Shown here in pieces: positions 1 through 23,455 of a stretch of DNA of 26,316 bases (the stretch's first letter is position 1; each line of letters begins with the position of its first letter). A program made the translations under genes and the position numbers. This stretch comes from a virus: the IMG/VR virus record IMGVR_UViG_3300027659_000183, positions 1-26,316 of that record; one strand, written 5' to 3'. The notes beneath the pieces are model-generated. The model worked only from the letters and a program-made list of their open reading frames with translations. It was not told the DNA's origin and ran no database searches.

Positions 1-1822
1 AAGTCTCGGTTACTCTTGAAGTTCCTTGAGAAGTATCAAATGTTGTTACAAACGCTGTCGTGGTATTAAACGCAGTCGTTGTGCCTCCAGAAGTTCCTGT
101 TGCTCTAGACGTGCTATTATTGGTATTGAACGCTGTTGATCGACTGGTGTCAGTAGCTCTACTTGTAGAACCAGTTGTATTAAACGTAGTAGTTCTAGAT
201 GTATCTGTTGCTTTTGATGTACCTTGCGTCGTATCAAAATTTGTCGTGGTGGCAAACGAAGTATTGAATATCGTCGTCGTAGCGAATGTGGTGACAAAAG
301 TTGTGGTTGTAGCATACAACGTATTAAACGTTGTGGTTGTACCGAATATTGTAGATCTACTTGTATCTGTGGTTTTACTTGTAGCGCCAGTCGTGTTAAA
401 GACCGTAGTAGTAGCAAACGTTGTGTTAAACGTAGTTGTTGTACCAAATGTCGTAGTTTTGCTAGTGTCGGTCGTCTTACTTGTACCTTGTGTAGTATCA
501 AAATTAGTGGTTGTCGCATACGATGTATTAAACGCAGTTGTCGTAGCAAACACCGTCGAACGACTAGTGTCGGTTGCTTTGCTTGTAGAACCAGTTGTAT
601 TAAACGTAGTTGTTTTAGAAGTATCAGTTGTTTTGCTAGTGGAACCAGTTGTATTAAACGTAGTCGTTTTGCTTGTATCGGTGGTCTTGCTCGTGCCTTG
701 TGTGGTATCAAAATTAGTTGTCGTAGCAAACGTAGTGTTAAATGTCGTCGTTGTAGAATATATGGTATCAAATACAGTTGTTGTAGCAAACGTGGTCGTT
801 ATAGTAGTGTCAGTAGTTCTAGACGTTCCTTGCGATGTATTAAACGCAGTAGTTGTAGCATACGAAGTATTAAACGCTGTTGTTGTACCGAACGTAGTCG
901 TTTTGCTAGTATCAGTAGTTTTGCTCGTGGCGCCAGTCGTATTAAATACGGTTGTTGTCGCATAAGCTGTGTTAAATGCAGTCGTTGTAGCATACAATGT
1001 ATTAAACGTGGTCGTTGTACCGAACGTAGTTGTTCTACTTGTATCAGTAGTTTTGCTAGTAGAACCAGTAGTATTAAACACGGTAGTTGTAGCATACGAA
1101 GTGTTAAACGTCGTTGTGGTTACAAATACTGTCGTGGTATCAAATACAGTGGACGTTGCTTTCGAAGTTGCAATATTAGTGCTGACAAGCGTGTTAGTAG
1201 TTCTAGTTGTCTGCGTAGTAATAACTGTGTCAGTTGTAAACGTCGTAATATAAGTTGTTTCAAAACTTGTTACGAACGTAGTCGTAGTATCAAATACAGT
1301 GGAAGTTGACTTAGAAGTAGCAGTCGCTTTAGAAGTTGCACGTGAAGTATCTGTGGTTCTATTGGTGTCAGTCAAGAACGCAGTATCTGTATTGAACGTT
1401 GTAACGAACGTCGTAGCAAATACAGTATTAAATGCAGTAGTCGTTGACTTGCTCGTAGAGGCAGTAGTCAACTTGCTGGTATCTGTTAATCTTGATGTAC
1501 CAGTATCAAGATTAGTTAGTGTAGCGTAAACAGTAGTCTTACTGGTATCGAATGTCGTAGTTTGACTTGTTTCAAACACAGTGGTTGTAGATTTAGTAGT
1601 ACCAGTTGCGCGCGACGTTTCAAAGACAGTAGCAAATCCAGCAGAAGCGCCATAGAAGTCAGAAAACTTGATAGTTCCAGATGTAGGAATAGCAGCGTTT
1701 ATCAATGTGTTCGCAACAAACGCACCACCACGATAATACTCAGAAATTGAGTGTGGTGCTGTACCGCCAAACTCTAGGGCGATGCTTGATAAACTAATTG
1801 TGCCTGACGACGGCAATGGCAT
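1..1822 (-). CDS. Threonine-rich repeat structural protein, 3' end cut by window edge
   Basis: An open frame runs from ATG at 1822 to the left window edge (606 full codons, no stop seen), so the C-terminus is missing. The first 60 residues form a distinct head, including EFGGTAPHSISEYYRGGAFV and then IPTSGTIKFSDFYGA; I know this head from structural and tail-tip proteins of T4-like marine phages. From about residue 62 on the protein is almost entirely a repeat built on F-x-T motifs spaced mostly 10 or 18 residues apart, with Thr often every third residue (for example TTTFNTTGSTSKTTDTSK). It starts 2 bases after the stop of the S74 fibre gene and has an AAGGA ribosome site, so it is probably co-transcribed with the fibres. 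A role as tail fibre, tip or surface decoration is inference from the head domain and position. Continuity of the frame is sure; function is not. Confidence 0.85.
   Translation of the reverse strand, partial: MPLPSSGTISLSSIALEFGGTAPHSISEYYRGGAFVANTLINAAIPTSGTIKFSDFYGASAGFATVFETSRATGTTKSTTTVFETSQTTTFDTSKTTVYATLTNLDTGTSRLTDTSKLTTASTSKSTTTAFNTVFATTFVTTFNTDTAFLTDTNRTTDTSRATSKATATSKSTSTVFDTTTTFVTSFETTYITTFTTDTVITTQTTRTTNTLVSTNIATSKATSTVFDTTTVFVTTTTFNTSYATTTVFNTTGSTSKTTDTSRTTTFGTTTTFNTLYATTTAFNTAYATTTVFNTTGATSKTTDTSKTTTFGTTTAFNTSYATTTAFNTSQGTSRTTDTTITTTFATTTVFDTIYSTTTTFNTTFATTTNFDTTQGTSKTTDTSKTTTFNTTGSTSKTTDTSKTTTFNTTGSTSKATDTSRSTVFATTTAFNTSYATTTNFDTTQGTSKTTDTSKTTTFGTTTTFNTTFATTTVFNTTGATSKTTDTSRSTIFGTTTTFNTLYATTTTFVTTFATTTIFNTSFATTTNFDTTQGTSKATDTSRTTTFNTTGSTSRATDTSRSTAFNTNNSTSRATGTSGGTTTAFNTTTAFVTTFDTSQGTSRVTET
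62..1640 (-). repeat. Degenerate 30/54-bp tandem repeats encoding Thr-rich peptide
   Basis: The DNA here is a long series of imperfect tandem units of about 30 and 54 bp, visible on the plus strand as recurring 'gtattaaacgtagttgt' and 'gtagaaccagttgtatt' blocks. They encode successive F-(N/D)-T segments of the Thr-rich protein. Because Thr codons are ACN, the plus strand becomes a row of NGT triplets. This removes stop codons and makes long but meaningless plus-strand open frames. Confidence 0.8.
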
Positions 1823-1824
1823 CG

Positions 1825-2946
1825 TTAATCCTTATTGAGCTGTGCTTTCAACTCATCAATTTGTGTCTGTTGCTCTTTGATTGCTTCGATTAAAAGAGGA
1901 ATCAATTTATCATATTTAACCGTCATATATTTGTTATCAATCGGCGCAGGTGCAACGATCTCTGGCATGATAGCATTTACTTCTTGCGCAGAAACACCGA
2001 CATGCATTTCTTTTTGATATCCGAGATCTTGCGCTGTGATGTTTGGTTCGTAGTAGAAACCATTTAACGATTTAACTTTTTCTACTGCGTTAGGAATATT
2101 TGAATAGCGATCTTTTAGTCGGTCATCTGAGAAGAACGCAGTAATGTCACCTGTGGCTGTAATGAATCCAGTAATTGTTGTGTTGCCAGCAGCTAGTGTG
2201 GAAGATACGTTAGCGAAACCAGTGATGGTAGTATTACCGAGTTCAACAGCACCAGCAACGACTAACTTACTACTCGGAGTAGAATTACCAATACCAACAT
2301 TACCAGCATTCGTAACAATAAATTTGTTTGTTAAATTAGCAGAACTTGCAACAGCTTCAAAAGTTCCACTTAACGCAGATGCGTAAGTATCAACTCTAAA
2401 TTCAGCAGCTCCGATTCTTACTCTATCTGGACCAGAAGTAGAAGGATCGTTGCCTTTGAATAAAAATAACTCAGATGCTTCCGAAGCAGTGTGTATTCTT
2501 TCACCAACATAAGTATGATTGTATGAGTTGGGTGAGTCGCCAGTAGTTCCTCTAAAACTTATAAAGTTTGGACCTGCATCAACTCCACCTATCGCAAGGT
2601 CACCGTTAATTGTGGTGTTGCCAGCGAAAAACGTACCTGTTACTGATAGAGCATGGCCAGGAGTTGTATTATTTACACCAACTCTATTATTTGTCCCATC
2701 GACAAACAAAACACCGCTGTCAAAGTTTGCATTACCACTAGTTTGTGTAAATGCAGTTCCGACAACTATGGTTGCAAGGTTCGCGCCAACTTCAAATGTC
2801 GCTGAACCATTGGAAGACAATAGTTTCCTGTCGGTAAGGTTGATTGCTAATTCACCTGCGGCGATGTACGAGGTGTTAGATGAGTTGCTTACGTTTGGCA
2901 GTAAGCCAGTGGTAGTAGTTCGTTTAATTTGAAATCTATTTGGCAT
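1825..2946 (-). CDS. Tail fibre with C-terminal S74 intramolecular chaperone
   Basis: 373 residues. The N-terminus (MPNRFQIKRTTTTG, then AAGELAINLTDRKLLSSNGS) matches the anchoring module of phage fibres that resembles the Mtd N-terminal domain. The middle is beta-rich and repetitive (GNTTI..., VGIGNSTPSSKL). The last 101 residues are a Peptidase_S74 / endosialidase chaperone domain: SDDRLKDRYSNIPNAVEKVK, then HVGVSAQEVNAIMPEI, and a closing helix LIEAIKEQQTQIDELKAQL. In this family the chaperone assembles the trimer and cleaves itself between Ser and Asp; here that would be Ser273-Asp274. The start follows AAAGGAG at good spacing. A 76-base gap upstream holds a hairpin and a promoter-like ACTAAATA, so this gene may also have its own transcript. 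The receptor is unknown. Confidence 0.9.
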   Translation of the reverse strand: MPNRFQIKRTTTTGLLPNVSNSSNTSYIAAGELAINLTDRKLLSSNGSATFEVGANLATIVVGTAFTQTSGNANFDSGVLFVDGTNNRVGVNNTTPGHALSVTGTFFAGNTTINGDLAIGGVDAGPNFISFRGTTGDSPNSYNHTYVGERIHTASEASELFLFKGNDPSTSGPDRVRIGAAEFRVDTYASALSGTFEAVASSANLTNKFIVTNAGNVGIGNSTPSSKLVVAGAVELGNTTITGFANVSSTLAAGNTTITGFITATGDITAFFSDDRLKDRYSNIPNAVEKVKSLNGFYYEPNITAQDLGYQKEMHVGVSAQEVNAIMPEIVAPAPIDNKYMTVKYDKLIPLLIEAIKEQQTQIDELKAQLNKD

Positions 2947-3382: not shown

Positions 3383-3985
3383 TTATTCGTAATAAAAAAT
3401 AATATATCCATTGGCTCCAGCAGATCCAAATCCTGATAGACCTAGTCCAGCTTGACCGCCATCACCTTTTTGTTCACTATTAAATCCAACGACTCCAGCA
3501 CCACCAGTTCCGGAATTGCCTGCGTCTTCTCCTGGATTACCTGTTGTATTTGTTATAGTGCCGCCAGATGCTGTACCACCAGCGCCGCCAGATCCAGATA
3601 CACCAGTTCCGCCACCTCCGCCACCAACACCAGAAAGTGTTGTTATAGTTTTAGTGCCACTGACAACTGAGGATGTTCCGCCTGTTGTTGCTCCTGTTAC
3701 GGAATTGCCACCAACACCGCCAACACCAACAGTGTATACCACTGTTTGTCCGCCTGTTATCGAATAAGAACTGTACGAATAACCACCACTACCGCCGCCA
3801 GCTCCATATGCTGGCTCAGCTGAACCAGTGCCTCGAGCGCCACCACCGCCAGCACCCCAGACAGCGATTGTAACAGTTTCACATCCACCTGGAGCTGTTT
3901 CTGTAGCAGAAGAGCCAGATGCATAATCGCGTCTAATTGGCGAAAACTTTCCGCCCATTAATAATGATTGCTGCATTGCGCCCAT
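3383..3985 (-). CDS. Glycine-rich protein, putative tip adhesin of the long fibre
   Basis: 200 residues from ATG 3985, whose A is the last base of the upstream fibre stop (TAATG). A frame open to 4054 would add 23 residues overlapping the fibre, but the coupled ATG is better. After a 30-residue leader, residues 36-200 are a glycine-rich domain: CETVTIAVWGAGGGG, a Gly/Ser stretch, SITGGQTVVYTVGVGGVGG, several GGAGG runs, and the end GSAGANGYIIFYYE. This pattern matches the Gly-rich phage domain family (VWGAGGGG ... TPGQ ... VGxGG). In T2/T6/S16-type phages a glycine-rich gp38 adhesin encoded right after the fibre gene caps the fibre tip; gene order and composition here fit that. There is no proven homology to gp38. 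It could instead be an independent short tail protein. Confidence 0.85.
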   Translation of the reverse strand: MGAMQQSLLMGGKFSPIRRDYASGSSATETAPGGCETVTIAVWGAGGGGARGTGSAEPAYGAGGGSGGYSYSSYSITGGQTVVYTVGVGGVGGNSVTGATTGGTSSVVSGTKTITTLSGVGGGGGGTGVSGSGGAGGTASGGTITNTTGNPGEDAGNSGTGGAGVVGFNSEQKGDGGQAGLGLSGFGSAGANGYIIFYYE

Positions 3986-6900
3986 TATGTTAGCCCTGAC
4001 CCAGATGCCAACCAAACAGTTGATGATATTTTTAACAAAGTACACACACCCCATGGCGCCAAAGTTCTAGATCCTGTTGTTGTCGTACCAGCAAGCCTTA
4101 GTGTGTCTGAATTAATTGCAATTGTAATGTTGGATGTTGCATTTCCGTTAAATACAGTAATAGCCGTACCAACAGGGAACGCTGTTGTTCCGTTTGCTGG
4201 TATGGTATAGGTGTAGGCTGTTGTGTTATTTTTGCCGATTGATTTACCGCTATCTGTGAGCGCGAAAGTATAAGTCGCGTTCTGAAGATTTTGCGGGATT
4301 TCGCGGAAACCAAGCTCTACACCATTGGCGAATGCCGTTCCAGTAGTGTGGTTGTAAATAAGAAGATCGCCACCAGCAGAGTCAAACACACCAGATTTTG
4401 TTACTGTTCCATTATTATAAAGACCAAACTGTACAGCTGTGCTTTGATCTTGAATATGTGCAGTAAACGATGCGAAATCTACTGAACTTCCTGTTGGAGT
4501 GTATGCTTCAAAATGCGCATAGTTCCATCCAATATTAGTTCTAGTCTTGCTTGATCTAAATCTTCCATCATCAGCAGGATAGATGTAATGCATTCCATCG
4601 CCACCAAGAGTCATATCAAGTCCAAGAGCGTCACTTGTTCTGGTATAGAAATTCATATCAGAGCCAACCCAGTTTCCATCTCTAGGATTGACAGATATGT
4701 ATCCAACATCTTTTACAGTAGAGACTGTATCAAGACCTTGTGCATATGATAATGCTATTGCTTTAGTGGTTACGCTAGTATTATTTAAGTTTCTAGGTAC
4801 TATTGGTGCAACTATATTAGTGGAGTTCAAATCAGAATAAATCTGACCAGCAACTTGCAGTTGTCCATTCAAGTAAAACCCACCACCATAATTTAGTCTT
4901 GTTCCATCGTAACCAATCTGATTTGTGTCGGATCCAAATCGAATAAAACCTAAACCACTATTTTGTACACCCTTAATACCTAGTGCGTTTGCTACGTTTA
5001 CATCATGTATTTCTGTATCATCACCAACACGAATAGCTGCGCCAGAACCACCAAATCTAGTGGACAGCAGCCCTGCTACTGTCGCTGCACCTGTTACTGT
5101 TAAGTTTGCAGTGCTTAGGGTACTTGTTGTTTTATTAAATGTGAATGTTGACGCACCGTTAGCAGTAGCAGAGTCGTTAAAAGTAACTTGTGTGTTGGTT
5201 GAAGCACCGATACCACTAATACCTGTCGTACCTTGTGCGCCAGTAGCACCCGTAGCACCTGTAGCACCTGTTGTGCCAGTTGTACCTTGGATACCTGTAG
5301 CACCTGTAGCACCTGTTGTTCCAGTTGTACCTTGTGCGCCAGTAGCACCCGTAGCACCTGTAGCACCTGTTGTGCCAGTTGTACCTTGGATACCTGTAGC
5401 ACCTGTAGCACCTGTTGTTCCAGTTGTACCTTGTGCGCCAGTAGCACCCGTAGCACCTGTTGTGCCAGTTGTACCTTGGATGCCTTGGATGCCTTGAGTT
5501 CCAACAGCACTAGACCAATAGACATTACCACCAGCACCAGAAGTTAAAACATTACCAGCATCACCAACACTATTATTAGCATTTATTTGTCCGCCAAGAT
5601 CTAATAGGTTTTGTGTAATAAATGTATTAACAGATGAGTTACCCACTGCATATGCAGAAGCATTTATAACAACATTAGAGCCAACAGTAATTGAATTTGT
5701 ATTAATGTTAGCAGTATCATTTACAGTCAAGTTAGCTGTTGTCAACCTTGCAGTAGCTTTTGTGAACGTCAACTGAGAGGAAGCATTGGCAACACCGCCA
5801 TCGTTAAAGATTATTTGGGTATCAGATCCAGCGATTGGTCCAGTGATGCCTTGTATTCCCTGAGTTCCGTTAGTACCAGAAGTACCTTGCGCACCAGTAA
5901 ATCCTTGAATACCTTGAATGCCTTGAGATCCGTTTGTTCCGTTAGTACCATTCGTTCCCGAAGTACCCTGAGTTCCTGTAAATCCTTGGATACCTTGAGT
6001 ACCTTGAGATCCGTTGGTTCCCGAAGTACCTTGGGTTCCAGTGAATCCTTGGATACCTTGAATACCTTGAATACCTTGTGCGCCAGCAGAACCAACGACA
6101 CTAGACCAATACACATTACCAGCGCCATTAGAAGTCAGAACCTGACCAGCAGAACCAACACTTCCATCTGCATTTATTTGTCCGCCAAGATCTAATAGGT
6201 TTTGTGTAATAAACGTATTAACAGTAGAATTACCTACGAAATATGCAGACGCATTTATGACAACATTAGAACCAACAGAAATCGAGTTAGTGTTAATCAC
6301 AGCAGTATCATTTACAGTTAAGTTAGCAGTCGTTAGTCTTGCAGTAGCTTTTGTAAAAGTCAACTGAGAGGAAGCATTAGAGAATCCGCCGTCATTAAAA
6401 ATTATTTGAGTATCAGAACCAGCGATTGGCCCAGTAAGACCTTGAATACCTTGAACACCCTGAGTTCCGTTGGTGCCATTCGTTCCTGAAGTTCCCTGAG
6501 ATCCAGTAAATCCTTGAATACCCTGTATTCCTTGAACACCCTGAGTTCCCCCAGTACCGCTAGTTCCAGAAGTACCCTGAGATCCAGTAAGACCTTGAAT
6601 ACCCTGTATTCCTTGAATACCTTGTGCGCCAGCAGAACCAACAACACTGGACCAATAGACATTACCGCCAGCAGCAGAAGTTAAAACTTGACCAGTGGTT
6701 CCGACGCTATCATTAGCATTAATTTGACCGTCAAGATGAAGTAGATTTTGAGTGATAAATGTATTGACACTAGAATTACCGACAGCGTATGCAGACACAT
6801 TTATAACAACATTAGAACCAACTGCGATAGAATTAGTGTTAATTACAGCTGTATCATTGACTGTTAGATTAGCGGTTGTTAATCTAGCAGTAGCTTTGGT

Positions 6901-8874
6901 AAAAGTCAACTGAGAAGATGCATTAGCAACACCACCATCGTTGAAAATCAGCTGGGTGTCAGAACCAGCAATTGGTCCAGCGATACCCTGAATGCCTTGA
7001 GTTCCTTGCGGACCTTGGATGCCTTGTATACCTTGTATTCCCTGTGTTCCATTAGTACCAGAAGTACCTTGCGCTCCAGTAAAACCTTGAATACCTTGGA
7101 TACCCTGAGCACCTGCAGAACCAACAACACTAGACCAATAGACGTTTCCATCAGCACCAGAAGTCAATATTTGACCAGCTGTGCCTACATTATTATTTGC
7201 GTTTAATTGACCGCCGAGGTCTAATAGTGTTGGAGTAATAATTGTATTTAAGCTGGCGTCACCAATAGTAATAGAATTGGTGTTAATAACTGCAGTATCA
7301 TTTACTGTTAGATTTGCTGTTGTTAGTCTTGCGGTAGCTTTTGTAAATGTTAGCTGGGAAGAAGCGTTAGAGAATCCACCATCATTAAAAATTATTTGAG
7401 TGTCAGATCCAGCGATTGGACCAGTAATACCTTGTATTCCCTGAGTTCCGTTAGTACCAGAAGTACCTTGCGCTCCAGTAAAACCTTGGATACCCTGAGT
7501 TCCCTGAATACCTTGTATTCCTTGAGCACCTGCAGAACCAACAACACTAGACCAATAGACGTTGCCAGCTTCACCAGAAGTCAATATTTGACCAGCTGTA
7601 CCAACTCCGCCATTTGCGTTTAATTGACCGCCAAGATCCAGTAGATTTTGCGTAATAAACGTATTTACAGATGAGTTGCCAACAAAATACGCTGAAGTAT
7701 TTACGACTACGTTAGAACCAACTGAAATAGAATTAGTGTTGATTACAGCAGTGTCATTAACTGTTAGATTAGCGGTTGTTAATCTAGCAGTAGCTTTTGT
7801 GAATGTCAGCTGAGAGGAAGCATTAGCAACACCACCATCATTAAAAATTAACTGAGTGTCAGAACCAGCAATTGGTCCAGTAATGCCTTGGATACCTTGA
7901 ATGCCCTGAATACCTTGAGCACCTGTAGTTCCTTGAGCACCTGCAGAACCAACAACGCTAGACCAATAGACATTACCATCAGCACCAGATGTTAGAATCT
8001 GCCCAGCAGAACCAACACCATTATTAGCGTTAATCTGACCACCAAGGTCTAATAGTGTTGGAGTAATAATTGTATTTAAGCTGGCGTCACCAATAGTAAT
8101 AGAATTGGTGTTAATAACTGCAGTATCATTTACTGTTAGATTAGCAGTTGTTAATGTATTTGTATCTTTATCAAATGTTAATAGAGAATCTCCGCCGAAA
8201 GAACCCGAATCGTTAAACTGAACTTGAGTGTTGGAACCACTTGGGATTCCAGATCCAGTTGTATCCCAGTAGACATTTCCTGCTGCTCCAGATTTTAGAA
8301 CTTGTCCAGCAGTACCAACTCCACCATTCGCGTTTATTTGACCACCAAGGTCTAATAGTGTTGGAGTAATAATTGTATTTAAGCTGACGCCACCAATTGT
8401 GATTGAGTTGGTATTGATTACAGCAGTGTCATTTACAGTCAAGTTAGCAGTAGTTAATGTATTTGTGTTTTTATCAAATGTTAGCTGGGAAGAAGCGCCA
8501 GCAACTCCACCATCGTTAAAAATTAACTGGGTGTCAGAGCCAGCTACTGGTCCAGCAATACCCTGAACGCCCTGAATACCTTGTAGTCCTGCGGAACCAG
8601 TACCAGAAATTCCTTGAATACCCTGTACACCTTGAATGCCCTGTACACCTTGAATGCCCTGTACACCTTGAATGCCCTGAGTACCTTGAATGCCTTGAAT
8701 GCCTTGAATGCCCTGTACACCTGATCCGCCACCGCCAATCTCTGAAACTACAGAACCGTTAGAGACCCATATCTTACCATCGTGTGTATTGATGCCAATG
8801 TCACCGTCAATACTTAATATGAAAGTATTGGGAACACGTCCAGGAACAGAAGTTTTCTTTATATTTGTGGTCAT
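3985..8874 (-). CDS. Giant modular collagen-like tail fibre, 1629 aa
   Basis: The N-terminus ([20 protein letters not shown], then [17 protein letters not shown]) is an anchoring module seen in phage fibres. Collagen-like G-x-y stretches follow ([12 protein letters not shown], later GTTGTTGATGATG at about residues 1110-1220). They alternate with a repeated globular module: [76 protein letters not shown]. Eight versions of the FNDGG-type module start at about residues 111, 215, 340, 493, 641, 823, 1018 and 1230. The last 400 residues differ: [20 protein letters not shown], then a C-terminal domain [20 protein letters not shown] ... WLASGSGLT that is frequent at phage fibre ends. No Shine-Dalgarno precedes ATG 8874, and a late promoter lies immediately upstream. 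Role: host-receptor fibre, trimeric by family analogy. Confidence 0.92.
5160..8560 (-). repeat. Eight repeated fibre modules with near-identical DNA
   Basis: Units of roughly 300-600 bp recur through the fibre gene, each with a 'ttaaaaattaactgggtgtcag'-like block on the plus strand. Similarity reaches identity in places: 7217-7314 and 8045-8142 read the same for 98 bases. Module identity at DNA level, not only protein level, points to recent duplication or gene conversion. Confidence 0.8.
5233..5500 (-). repeat. 99-bp tandem repeat encoding a 33-residue collagen-like unit
   Basis: The block 'ttgtgcgcc' recurs at 5233, 5332 and 5431, exactly 99 bases apart, with nearly identical sequence between copies. 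The unit encodes [15 protein letters not shown] followed by [18 protein letters not shown]. There are almost three copies, the leftmost-coding one shortened. Length changes in whole triplet multiples would keep the frame. Confidence 0.85.
8611..8720 (-). repeat. 18-bp tandem repeat encoding GVQGIQ
   Basis: The plus-strand unit 'ccttgaatgccctgtaca' repeats in tandem near the start of the fibre gene and encodes (GVQGIQ)n, a collagen-like G-x-y tract at about residues 52-88. The units are almost identical, so the copy number can be expected to vary. Confidence 0.8.
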
Positions 8875-20461: not shown

Positions 20462-22315
20462 TTATGGGGTTGTGTTTAGCACCGTTTCAATAACGGTATC
20501 AAAAATTGTATCTACGTCCACAGTTGTTACATAAGCAGTGGCTGACGAAGTATTTATAGCGGTTGTTGTAGATCTTATGGTTTCATAAGCTGTTGAAATC
20601 GCTGTTATGTACTGCGTAGCATTTAACACAGTTCCTGTTTGGTTAAACACGGTATCTGTATAGAACTTAGTATTAATAGTTGTATCTTGAGTTACTGTCG
20701 TATTCGTATCTGTAGATAATTTTGTTTCTAGAGAAGTGTCATATTCAGTTAAAACTGTCGTAGAGGTCTGTTTAATAACAGTTGAAGTTACAAGATTAGT
20801 CTCAAGAGCAGAATTTGTGTATGTCGCTGTTCTATATGTTGTATCTTTTTCATACTCGGTTGTTGTATTTGTAGAACTCGAAGTACCTATTTCTGTTAAT
20901 ATAGAAGTAGAATACTTTGTTGCTAAGGTTGTAGCCTTAAATGTATCTGTTGCTATCTTGGTATCTTTGTCAGTCGCATAAGAAGTTGCAACTGTAGTTA
21001 ATGCTTCGCCAGTAAGAAAATATGTTAAAATTTCAGTTGGACGTGAAGTCGCAAACTTAGTAATGATGTCAGTGCTTTTATTTGTTAGTGTGGTAACATT
21101 TGTAGTAACATCAGTATCTAATGTAGTATCAAACGAAATCTCTTGAAATTTGGTATTATAGAAAGTTGTAAATTTGGTTTCTGCGCTGGTTTCATAAACA
21201 GTATTAATTGTAGTTAATACATTTGTCATAAACGTTGTAGCAGCGAACTTCTTTGTATCAATTGTAGTATCTTTTGACGTAGCATACGCAGTTGTGGTTG
21301 CAACTTTAGTAGCATATGCTGTTAAATACACAGTCGTTGTTTTAATTTCTGTTCCAGCAAAGAAAGACGTCGTCGTAGCAGTAGATGGCAACGTACCAGT
21401 TGTTATATTGGTTGTTTTAAGTGTATCTGTATTAAACTTCGTTGTCGTTGATTGTTTAGTATCATATGACGTGTTGAACGTTGTATTAAACGTAGTAAGC
21501 GTATTATACACAGTAGAAGTTGATAAAGATGTTTCTTTTGTACTACCACCACTGGTGTCGTATATTGTTGCAAATGTGGTTGCTATAAACGTGGTGGCTG
21601 TGTCTTTTGACGTAGCAACTTTTGTTGTTTCAGATACAGTGCTTACTTTACTACATCTCCAAATCCATTCGCCTTCAATTTCTTCATTAGAAAATTCGCA
21701 ATCGCCACCGAGCGATGGATTTCTAATATCAAATCCAAACGAAGCAGCGTCCACTTCAGCAGCATTTTTATTTACAAATCCTGAGCCATATCCACTTGTA
21801 GTAATCTCAGTATCTGCAGTCTTATTTGTATCAAACGTCGTTGTTGTAATAAAATTGGTATTGCGCGAAGTTTGATATGTCGTAGGTGTAGCAAACAACA
21901 ATGTTGAATATGTCGTAGAAGTCAAAAGAGCCGTATTGGTCAAATAATTAGTCGAAGCTGTGGTTGACTTATTAGTTTGAAAAGCTGTATCTGTTGATTT
22001 ACTAGTCTGGGTACTCGCGACTGCTTCACCAACATAAGTGGTGTCTGTGAGTACTGTTGTACTAATATCAGTATCAAACGCAGTTGCTGTCGTAATTAAT
22101 GTATTATACGTTGTAGTCGTAGTTGTAGATGTCGCTGTATTGTAAGTGGTATTCTTAGAAGTATCGCGCTTCGTTATAAAAGTAGTATCAAAAGCAGCAG
22201 TCGTTAAATACTCTGTAGCAAATGCAGTTGCTTTCGCAGTTTCTGTAAATGCGCTAGTCGTAATACCAGTAGAGGTAGTCAAGAAAGTAGACGTAGAAGT
22301 TAGATATAAAGTTTC
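20462..22315 (-). repeat. Thr-rich repeat region of the gp7-position protein
   Basis: This DNA encodes about 600 residues built on T-(aromatic)-x-T and TSK/TSR motifs, more divergent than the repeats at the left end of the window. It is broken at about 21640-21800 by ordinary sequence. On the plus strand it appears as recurring 'gttgta', 'gtatca' and 'gtatta' blocks. The two halves around the island show no obvious identical copies, so this array looks older than the one at 62-1640. Confidence 0.75.
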
Positions 22316-23455
22316 TATGTAATCAATTAATGCTTCTAAAGTAGTTCCTCTAGAAACAGCTATTTCTTGAACTAAAGTCCTGCCGAACTTTTCCATGCCC
22401 GCAGGATGCCACAAGTCGCGTAAAATACCAGAATATCTTTCAAAGGCAGTTAATGCTTGAACTTCGTATGAATATTCCTGATAGTAATAATTGTCATGAA
22501 TGTATTTGTCAGAACTTAAGAATCCTCTTGTATTCTTGAAAAACCCATCAGCCACACCATGACCAGCAAAACTAATAGTTCCTGCTGCATCACGAGAAGA
22601 ATCTACAGTGCTGACGAGTGTTACTGACGAACCATCAATATAACCAACTCCAGAATTGTATAGTTTAACAGCAGAAACTCCATCAGAATCAGTTAATCCT
22701 GTTACCACAACTTGTCCAGATATTCCGTCGCCGACGACATTTAATACTTCGCCCAAAGAAAATCCAGAGTCAGAACTAGTCATAGAAATTTGGTTTAAGG
22801 ATCCTTTAATTCTAGGACTTTGTAACACGTCAATATCAAGAGCATCTATAATATCGTCATTAATAATTTCTTCAGAGGGCACGAATGTACCTTTTATATT
22901 AGAAATATAAAGTATCTCATACAGATTACCGCTGATAGAATATGTTTTGTAGTCGTCTACAAAAGCCGTCGCACCAGAAACTCGACCAGTGATTGTTTTT
23001 CCAATGTATTGTTTTGTGTTTAGATTATATTCTAATTCCAGATATTTCGGAACAAACCACTGACCATCTGACGCGCGAAGAATATCGCCGCCAGGAATAT
23101 ACACATTGATGTCTTCATTAAATAGAATTCTAAAAAGAAGTTCTAAACCACGAGCAGTACCCTTCGAAGAATACACTTCTTTGATATGTTTTTGCAATAA
23201 TCGTTTATCTGCAGCGATATCTTTTGGAATACCGTGCATATATTTTTTTCTGAATTCATCTACGAATCTGTCTAGAGTAGTATCAATATCACGATATTCT
23301 GGAAGTCGACGAGAATCATAAGCAACATTATTAGTTTGTTCTAACCATTCAAAGTATGTTTTTACAAATGTAACGAACGTCGCTCCTTCGTCACGATAGA
23401 TAGAAGGAAATTGTTGTTCGATTAATGGAGAAATTAATTTCTCAATATCTTTCAT
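20462..23455 (-). CDS. gp7-position baseplate protein with long Thr-repeat C-terminus
   Basis: 997 residues, close to the 1032 of T4 gp7 and in the same place between gp6 and gp8, but sequence homology to gp7 is not evident to me. Residues 1-135 match a conserved baseplate-type N-terminus of marine T4-like phages: FPSIYRDEGATFVTFVKTYF, EWLEQ, HIKEVYSSKGTARGLELLFR, GGDILRASDGQW. Residues 135-380 form a mixed domain ending FERYSGILRDLWHPAGMEKF. From about 381 to the end the chain is Thr-rich repeat (TTTTFDTN, TTYNTLITT, TAYATKVATTTAYATSKDT), broken by a non-repeat island at about 552-605. The ATG overlaps the gp6 stop by one base (TAATG). The repeat part may be an elongated stalk or surface extension; nothing in it is catalytic. 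Confidence 0.85.
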   Translation of the reverse strand: MKDIEKLISPLIEQQFPSIYRDEGATFVTFVKTYFEWLEQTNNVAYDSRRLPEYRDIDTTLDRFVDEFRKKYMHGIPKDIAADKRLLQKHIKEVYSSKGTARGLELLFRILFNEDINVYIPGGDILRASDGQWFVPKYLELEYNLNTKQYIGKTITGRVSGATAFVDDYKTYSISGNLYEILYISNIKGTFVPSEEIINDDIIDALDIDVLQSPRIKGSLNQISMTSSDSGFSLGEVLNVVGDGISGQVVVTGLTDSDGVSAVKLYNSGVGYIDGSSVTLVSTVDSSRDAAGTISFAGHGVADGFFKNTRGFLSSDKYIHDNYYYQEYSYEVQALTAFERYSGILRDLWHPAGMEKFGRTLVQEIAVSRGTTLEALIDYIETLYLTSTSTFLTTSTGITTSAFTETAKATAFATEYLTTAAFDTTFITKRDTSKNTTYNTATSTTTTTTYNTLITTATAFDTDISTTVLTDTTYVGEAVASTQTSKSTDTAFQTNKSTTASTNYLTNTALLTSTTYSTLLFATPTTYQTSRNTNFITTTTFDTNKTADTEITTSGYGSGFVNKNAAEVDAASFGFDIRNPSLGGDCEFSNEEIEGEWIWRCSKVSTVSETTKVATSKDTATTFIATTFATIYDTSGGSTKETSLSTSTVYNTLTTFNTTFNTSYDTKQSTTTKFNTDTLKTTNITTGTLPSTATTTSFFAGTEIKTTTVYLTAYATKVATTTAYATSKDTTIDTKKFAATTFMTNVLTTINTVYETSAETKFTTFYNTKFQEISFDTTLDTDVTTNVTTLTNKSTDIITKFATSRPTEILTYFLTGEALTTVATSYATDKDTKIATDTFKATTLATKYSTSILTEIGTSSSTNTTTEYEKDTTYRTATYTNSALETNLVTSTVIKQTSTTVLTEYDTSLETKLSTDTNTTVTQDTTINTKFYTDTVFNQTGTVLNATQYITAISTAYETIRSTTTAINTSSATAYVTTVDVDTIFDTVIETVLNTTP

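Follow-up and report, generated by a model that had tools for sequence, protein, structure and literature searches.

A threonine-rich repeat protein from the tail-fibre block of a T4-superfamily phage as the probable arm of a giant antiparallel beta-hairpin

The virus record IMGVR_UViG_3300027659_000183, the whole of which (26,316 bases) is the window analyzed here, carries at one end a gene, gene A, whose product consists largely of a threonine-rich repeat. What fold such a repeat could adopt, and what it could do on a phage tail, are the questions raised by this locus. Since the window is the whole record, the C-terminus of gene A is unreadable from it, and complete proteins were taken from IMG/VR relatives.

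Gene A, its repeat, and its genomic surroundings

The window covers the block in which a T4-superfamily myovirus encodes its baseplate and tail fibres, with genes for gp25 (assigned by position and by eye), gp6, a gp7-like protein (gene B), gp8, a collagen-like fibre, a poly-Gly gp38-type ORF, an S74 fibre, and gene A. The first-pass annotation was right to place gene A in a phage tail context. By gp6 (45.5%) and by the gp7-like wedge (47%), the closest cultured phage is Stenotrophomonas phage DLP6. The features considered are the following:

2-1822, minus strand: gene A ORF, 607 aa, ATG at 1822, open at the contig end
1643-1822, minus strand: gene A residues 1-60, N-terminal attachment ('head') domain (alignment of 23 heads; phrog_30374)
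2-1642, minus strand: gene A residues 61-607, predicted outgoing arm of a Thr hairpin, truncated near the predicted tip (parity; pairing with L012; dN/dS)
1825-2946, minus strand: tail fibre with a C-terminal Peptidase_S74 chaperone domain (Pfam PF13884, PHROG tail families), directly upstream of gene A
3383-3982, minus strand: poly-Gly ORF, gp38-type and distal adhesin-like (phrog_863, E 1.3e-9), start codon uncertain
20462-23455, minus strand: gene B ORF, gp7-like baseplate gene
22307-23455, minus strand: gene B residues 1-383, gp7-like baseplate wedge domain (phrog_17744, baseplate wedge subunit, E 1e-118)
20462-22306, minus strand: gene B residues 384-997, second Thr-repeat tail, C-terminal, 614 aa, shorter and less regular than gene A
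21626-21808, minus strand: gene B residues 550-610, inserted non-repeat domain with two Cys (GFVNKNAAEVDAASFGFDIRNP...EWIWRCSK; non-repeat segment detection)

Both the profile and the position of gene B, flanked by gp6 (phrog_219) and gp8 (phrog_438), are those of a T4-type gp7, and its wedge domain is 47% identical over 94% to the DLP6 baseplate wedge AAY80_265. Its Thr-repeat tail had been overlooked in the first-pass annotation, as had the strict two-residue parity of gene A described below. The Cys-containing insert is common to L013 and L054, and repeat modules are common to genes A and B of different phages. The poly-Gly ORF, which when read from its first ATG shares bases with the end of the collagen-like fibre gene, probably encodes a free-standing distal adhesin.

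The 60-residue SGTIS...SDFYG domain at the N-terminus of gene A (phrog_30374) is its sole match in the PHROG scan, and the alignment of 23 heads gives the motif SGTIS..EFGG..SEYYRGG..PTSGTIKFSDFYG. The head is also found in cultured Vibrio, Xanthomonas, Ochrobactrum, and Stenotrophomonas phages, and it occurs before poly-Gly (in many phages) and other distal parts. It has no match in PDB or Pfam, and a PDB sequence search with gene A likewise gave none. A megablast comparison of the window with the database returned no match, nor did tblastn with the repeat alone. The low-complexity filter masks the repeat, and the empty tblastn result is not evidence of absence, because this search also missed DLP6 and the Vibrio phage discussed below.

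In agreement with the earlier description of a 60-residue head followed by more than 540 residues of F-x-T repeats, the head is followed by 547 residues (44% Thr), in which x-Thr follows all 59 Phe/Tyr. The aromatic spacings are mainly 4, 6, and 18, with a few of 8, 16, 20, 28, and 32, and local repeats of 10, 18, and 34 residues are present. Of the two spacings named before, 18 is indeed common and 10 is the sum of 4 and 6, but 4 and 6 are themselves main spacings. Thr was not found at every third residue (lag-3 autocorrelation -0.21); the dominant period is 2.0, with a spectral power of 11.9 against a shuffled maximum of 3.0. All 59 aromatics and all 33 Lys/Arg share one parity with 161 Thr, and the other parity holds 55 S, 37 A, 28 N, 24 D, 19 V, and 80 T, that is, all S and D, nearly all N, A, and V, and the rest of the Thr. 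This parity does not slip once across the 547 residues. Such strict alternation is the sequence signature of a single uninterrupted beta-strand. An alpha-helical coiled coil, considered because of a spectral side peak at 3.43, was rejected, since this peak is an alias of the two-residue signal and the parity is strict. The dN/dS of the repeat (0.13-0.21 against three relatives) indicates purifying selection. The 607 residues contain one His, and the repeat none.

Pairing between the arms in complete relatives

In complete relatives, this arm leads into a turn or tip domain at the midpoint, beyond which runs another arm of near-equal length. In L009 (1,202 aa) a non-repeat block occupies residues 539-740 in the middle of the repeat; L041 (128 aa) has a DGK turn at its middle; central blocks are also present in L021 and L062. 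The arms around the turn or domain measure 753 and 749 residues in L008, where the tip domain between them is read in two frames, 464/464 in L009, 585/585 in L217, and 259/259 in DLP6. The same kind of repeat occurs in the DLP6 wedge and in a small protein of Vibrio phage 6E35.1a.

Frame splits affect the Thr-repeat genes of four contigs (L008 at 4308-4368, L012 at about 2005-2032, L016 at about 6372-6418, and L017 at about 6990-7040). The L017 break shows a direct duplication, and that of L016 is apparently a deletion. These splits are probably assembly errors in repeats and less probably real frame variation.

In the mirror test, bulky residues at position i were correlated with those at S-i for every possible centre. 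The scan of L009 gave one centre, 633.5, with z 16.5 (next 8.1), and that of L008 one register of 749 pairs with z 20.6 (next 11.8). A single dominant centre at the turn or central block was likewise obtained for L021 (z 8.6), DLP6 (z 9.3), and L013 (z 7.2). Mirror scans over 60 residues were swamped by noise, the repeat being palindromic on a local scale, and only long registers were used. Because unlike classes pair with each other, tracks of a single residue class (aromatic alone or Lys/Arg alone) failed to peak at the right register in L009.

At the best register, the pair tables place Lys/Arg opposite an aromatic residue in 105 of 105 cases in L008, 64 of 64 in L009, and 34 of 38 in DLP6; no Lys/Arg and no aromatic stands opposite Thr in L008. 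As a control, the blocks between bulky residues were permuted 2,000 times, taking the best count over all registers. The maxima were 39 for L008 and 26 for L009, and none of the 2,000 permutations reached the observed value in L008, L009, or DLP6. For the short L041 this test is weak (38/2000).

A log-odds pairing matrix was built from L008 and L009 and then applied to other proteins. In the 12 proteins outside the matrix set about 90-100% of Lys/Arg matched an aromatic: L217 (64/66 over 585 ungapped pairs), L219 (62/62), L216 (55/56), L218 (57/59), L013 (46/46), L220 (44/49), L222 (35/39), DLP6 (35/39 over 259 pairs), L062 (24/24, or 43/43 gapped), L214 (21/21), L057 (29/31), and L017 (18/20). 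The matrix used to choose the register favours such pairs, but the choice fixes a single number per protein, against hundreds of pairs. Matrix scores were 97-370 for these coded proteins and at most 34 for ORFs without a Thr repeat. The best parallel-order control gave 10-28 pairs, near the permuted level, and in nearly all proteins the parallel-order and permuted controls reached at most half of the observed count. Some of the coded proteins, such as L013, have repeat modules in common with gene A; others have different heads.

Pooling of 1,739 pairs on the bulky face of ten proteins revealed a near-binary pattern. Thr almost never stands opposite a bulky residue across the arms (F-T 2 against 292 expected, R-T 1 against 164), whereas F-R (243 against 47) and T-T (905 against 514) are in excess, and Lys/Arg never faces Lys/Arg (0 against 26). 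The ordered Thr rows anticipated by the first-pass annotation are supported, in that Thr pairs with Thr across the arms. Where an aromatic has no Lys/Arg partner, the residue across from it is mostly aliphatic, small, or Gln. On the small face (S, T, A, N, D, V), N-S (132 against 68 expected) and D-S (105 against 61) are favoured and S-S is depleted (37 against 74). Rungs 4, 8, and 12 residues apart are mostly flipped (60/33, 45/21, and 30/8), and those 6 apart mostly have the same orientation (100/50), which may reflect packing of the ribbon.

For gene A itself, pairing rests on the return arm of a close relative, the window being without its own. Aligned with the reversed return arm of L012, the gene A arm gives 543 pairs (gapped), with all 76 Lys/Arg opposite an aromatic, and scores 354 in antiparallel and 82 in forward order. 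In the window gene A breaks off at TSQGTSRVTET, just ahead of the site of the L012 turn segment VYETFYLTEFKDGKQIIFEETSR, and thus the contig stops near the predicted tip. The complete protein would be close to 1,200 aa, or longer if it has a tip domain, and its return arm would match residues 64-607 in reversed sequence. A hairpin within gene A was also considered and rejected, as no internal pairing scored above 61, compared with 354 for the L012 arm.

The Thr tail of gene B, unlike L013 and DLP6, has no significant pairing code within its own sequence, and a hairpin is suggested there by homology only. In its relatives L013 and L054 the landmarks are symmetric about the turn. The landmark-to-turn distances in the three gp7-like homologues are 592/588 in L013, 456/451 in L054, and about 10/10 in gene B, which suggests coordinated changes in the length of the two arms. 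A two-residue shift of a rung has occurred on both arms at once in two homologue pairs.

Judged by sequence, the N-terminal parts that carry coded hairpins are of at least five different kinds. They comprise the gene A head, the gp7-like wedges, and the heads of the L021/L216, L217/L219, L220/L222, and L062 types, and some of these last four types may share a distant ancestry. L220 has between its arms a tip that matches phrog_863, a gp38-type family (E 3.3e-16), as does the window ORF at 3383-3982. The domains inserted in L009 and DLP6 gave no informative family or phage match, no head of the L217 or L021 kind was found among cultured phages, and a search of cellular genomes with L009 returned no relative. 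The hairpin proteins tested against Pfam and PDB had no sequence match beyond the wedge domains of gene B and DLP6 and sub-threshold noise.

Two further observations concern individual contigs. Another Thr-repeat protein, encoded at L010 1593-2483, has a partial code (8/9, around centre 150); it is the third of its phage, to which the 1,202-aa gene A relative also belongs. The second ORF of L017 (from 7014) contains, besides the main midpoint, extra short non-repeat excursions at 609-628, 730-753, 921-942, 982-1006, and 1259-1276, which resemble small hairpin turns inside the arms (SGEP, KGD, DGA).

Proposed fold and role, and alternative explanations

The period of two and the antiparallel complementarity point to a giant beta-hairpin, and gene A is very probably one arm of it, forming the stem of a tail-associated adhesin that presents a tip. 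The hairpin would be held by Thr:Thr ladders and cation-pi rungs, and the code would work like a zipper, preventing so long a low-complexity strand from slipping out of register. The head and the C-terminus would lie together at the base on the tail, with the tip about 50-250 nm away in the long forms. At the beta-strand rise of 0.33 nm per residue the arms, if extended, would span from about 85 nm (DLP6) to 250 nm (L008). The arms could lengthen or shorten symmetrically, so that reach changes and register is kept. The phrog_863 tip of L220, together with the gene A head that elsewhere fronts poly-Gly proteins, suggests that the hairpin serves as a stem, with a receptor-contacting tip set at a distance from the baseplate. 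The tip would present exchangeable receptor-contacting domains, receptor binding being inferred from gene context and the tip domains.

Structure prediction with AlphaFold2 gave the truncated arm of gene A, submitted as one arm without its partner and with only five sequences, a pLDDT of 28, too low to be informative. Of the two observations that the first-pass annotation had named as speaking against a defined fold, confidence below 50 throughout the truncated arm was found, whereas a lack of periodicity was not, the periodicity being very strong. For the short member L133, identical to L041, the model contains a hairpin (E77-94/E97-114) around a DG turn, the outer parts of both arms being below 50. 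Its ideal two-residue turn corresponds to i+j = 191, four residues off the 195 of the best register by the code. L013, with the same turn motif as L041, shows the same shift, and our guess is a bulge near the turn. In a Foldseek search of PDB with the L133 model, the best hits were generic long hairpins of pore-forming proteins (E 0.5), which were dismissed as not significant.

The same antiparallel pairing could also be formed between chains, in an intertwined homotrimer building a six-stranded needle like that of T4 gp37 D11, whose topology (PMC6957217) matches the arm-tip-arm order. This is a version of the preferred explanation and does not exclude it; we consider it quite possible, if somewhat short of an even chance. 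The small-residue face could line a narrow core, but T4 gp37 itself is without the pairing code (score 22, within background). Moreover, gp7, a carrier of the hairpin here, is present in T4 as one copy per wedge, which would favour monomeric arms.

A beta-solenoid, as proposed in the first-pass annotation, or a triple beta-spiral stem, with the chain winding round an axis in units of 10 or 18 residues and Thr rows on the surface, would account for the regular 4/6/18 aromatic spacing and the richness in Thr, and many phage fibre shafts are trimeric beta-helices. Such a stem needs no mirror symmetry, however, whereas the halves observed are complementary in antiparallel order, in a single register, about a midpoint turn or domain. 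The translation-related rungs of a solenoid or triple beta-helix were not found, parallel order being near the permuted level and antiparallel order at about 90-100%. Turns every 10-18 residues should disturb the parity of gene A, which never slips, and the 585-pair register of L217 is unbroken. This makes the solenoid or spiral improbable.

Low-complexity filler, that is, Thr repeats made by slippage, disordered or glycosylated and without a defined fold, is a still poorer candidate with very little probability left. Low complexity, the modules shared between A and B genes of different phages, and the low AlphaFold2 confidence speak for it; the dN/dS, the strict parity, and the recurrence of the code behind different heads speak against it. 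Cross-arm matching of 105 of 105 cannot arise by slippage, because the sequence is matched to its own reverse order. The claim of a defined beta-structure rather than a disordered linker has accordingly held up, on parity, antiparallel complementarity, and purifying selection. An ice-binding or surface-adhesive array of Thr rows, offered earlier by analogy with the Thr-rich beta surfaces of antifreeze proteins, hardly deserves consideration: the uninterrupted TxT face is absent, a bulky residue usually interrupting every 4 or 6 residues in gene A, the code accounts for Thr as the partner of Thr, and among the cultured carriers DLP6 is from a soil sample and the Vibrio phages are from seawater or oyster samples.

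With the giant hairpin as the preferred explanation, these proteins probably represent a new class of fibrous proteins, a two-stranded beta-ribbon with a near-binary code of T:T and aromatic:cation pairs over up to 749 pairs (about 250 nm extended), attached to at least five phage N-terminal parts and lengthening symmetrically. To our knowledge, this would be the first natural protein stem in which so long a pairing code, legible in the sequence, sets the register. A search of open-access papers on Thr-rich phage fibres or cross-strand codes gave nothing relevant, the sole 'threonine-rich' match being a host S-layer motif. An apparently featureless low-complexity region would become readable, with residue contacts predictable from sequence across hundreds of pairs. 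The code would explain how a very long beta-strand could avoid misregistration, and would offer a simple design rule for long protein fibres. It also reveals probable host-contacting proteins overlooked by the BLAST low-complexity filter, Pfam, and automatic annotation.

Comparison with known phage proteins

The nearest architectural parallel is the T4 gp37 needle, in which the stem segments 882-931 and 960-1009 (50/50-residue arms) enclose a tip, 932-959, inserted in the stem; the whole T4 long tail fibre measures about 145 nm (PMC6957217). The needle and, as predicted from sequence, the coded hairpins share an out-and-back chain, a tip inserted in mid-stem, arms of matching length, and both stem ends at the base. 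The coded hairpins differ in their arms of 32-750 residues, up to about 15 times longer, and in their rungs of Thr and aromatic:Lys/Arg pairs. The needle contains a His-coordinated central row of irons (14 His in 128 aa), whereas the gene A repeat lacks His. No sequence similarity of gene A to the needle was found with PDB, the PHROG scan, or the code detector.

The gp38-type distal adhesins (phrog_863) share with the L220 hairpin tip the poly-Gly domain of the same family. They differ in that, where the gene A head fronts poly-Gly elsewhere, gene A has the hairpin stem, and their PHROG label is 'tail fiber assembly'. Long phage beta-hairpins are also known as the chaperone 'tentacles' of Alteromonas phages; these are about 9 nm long and sit on a helical chaperone body, and the part of their description considered here reports no code or Thr repeat (PMC10579305).

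Among cultured phages, the wedge of DLP6 (KU682439.2, AAY80_265) is a true homologue of the gene B wedge domain and carries the same coded hairpin, differing in a non-repeat domain inserted in the outgoing arm; the text of the DLP6 paper nowhere mentions threonine (PMC5349666). QZI87587.1 of Vibrio phage 6E35.1a, a 177-aa protein annotated as 'putative cell wall mannoprotein', has the gene A head and a coded hairpin with 12 of 12 Lys/Arg opposite an aromatic, but its arms are only about 55 residues each, it is Trp-rich, and its turn, CGKGVCG, contains two Cys. The host reach of some T4-like phages thereby becomes testable in cultured DLP6 and Vibrio phage 6E35.1a. In the Vibrio phage records L226, L227 (from 3001, 177 aa), and L225 (from 3001, 185 aa) the coded-hairpin gene is unannotated, and the annotation instead shows two tiny ORFs of some 100 bases.
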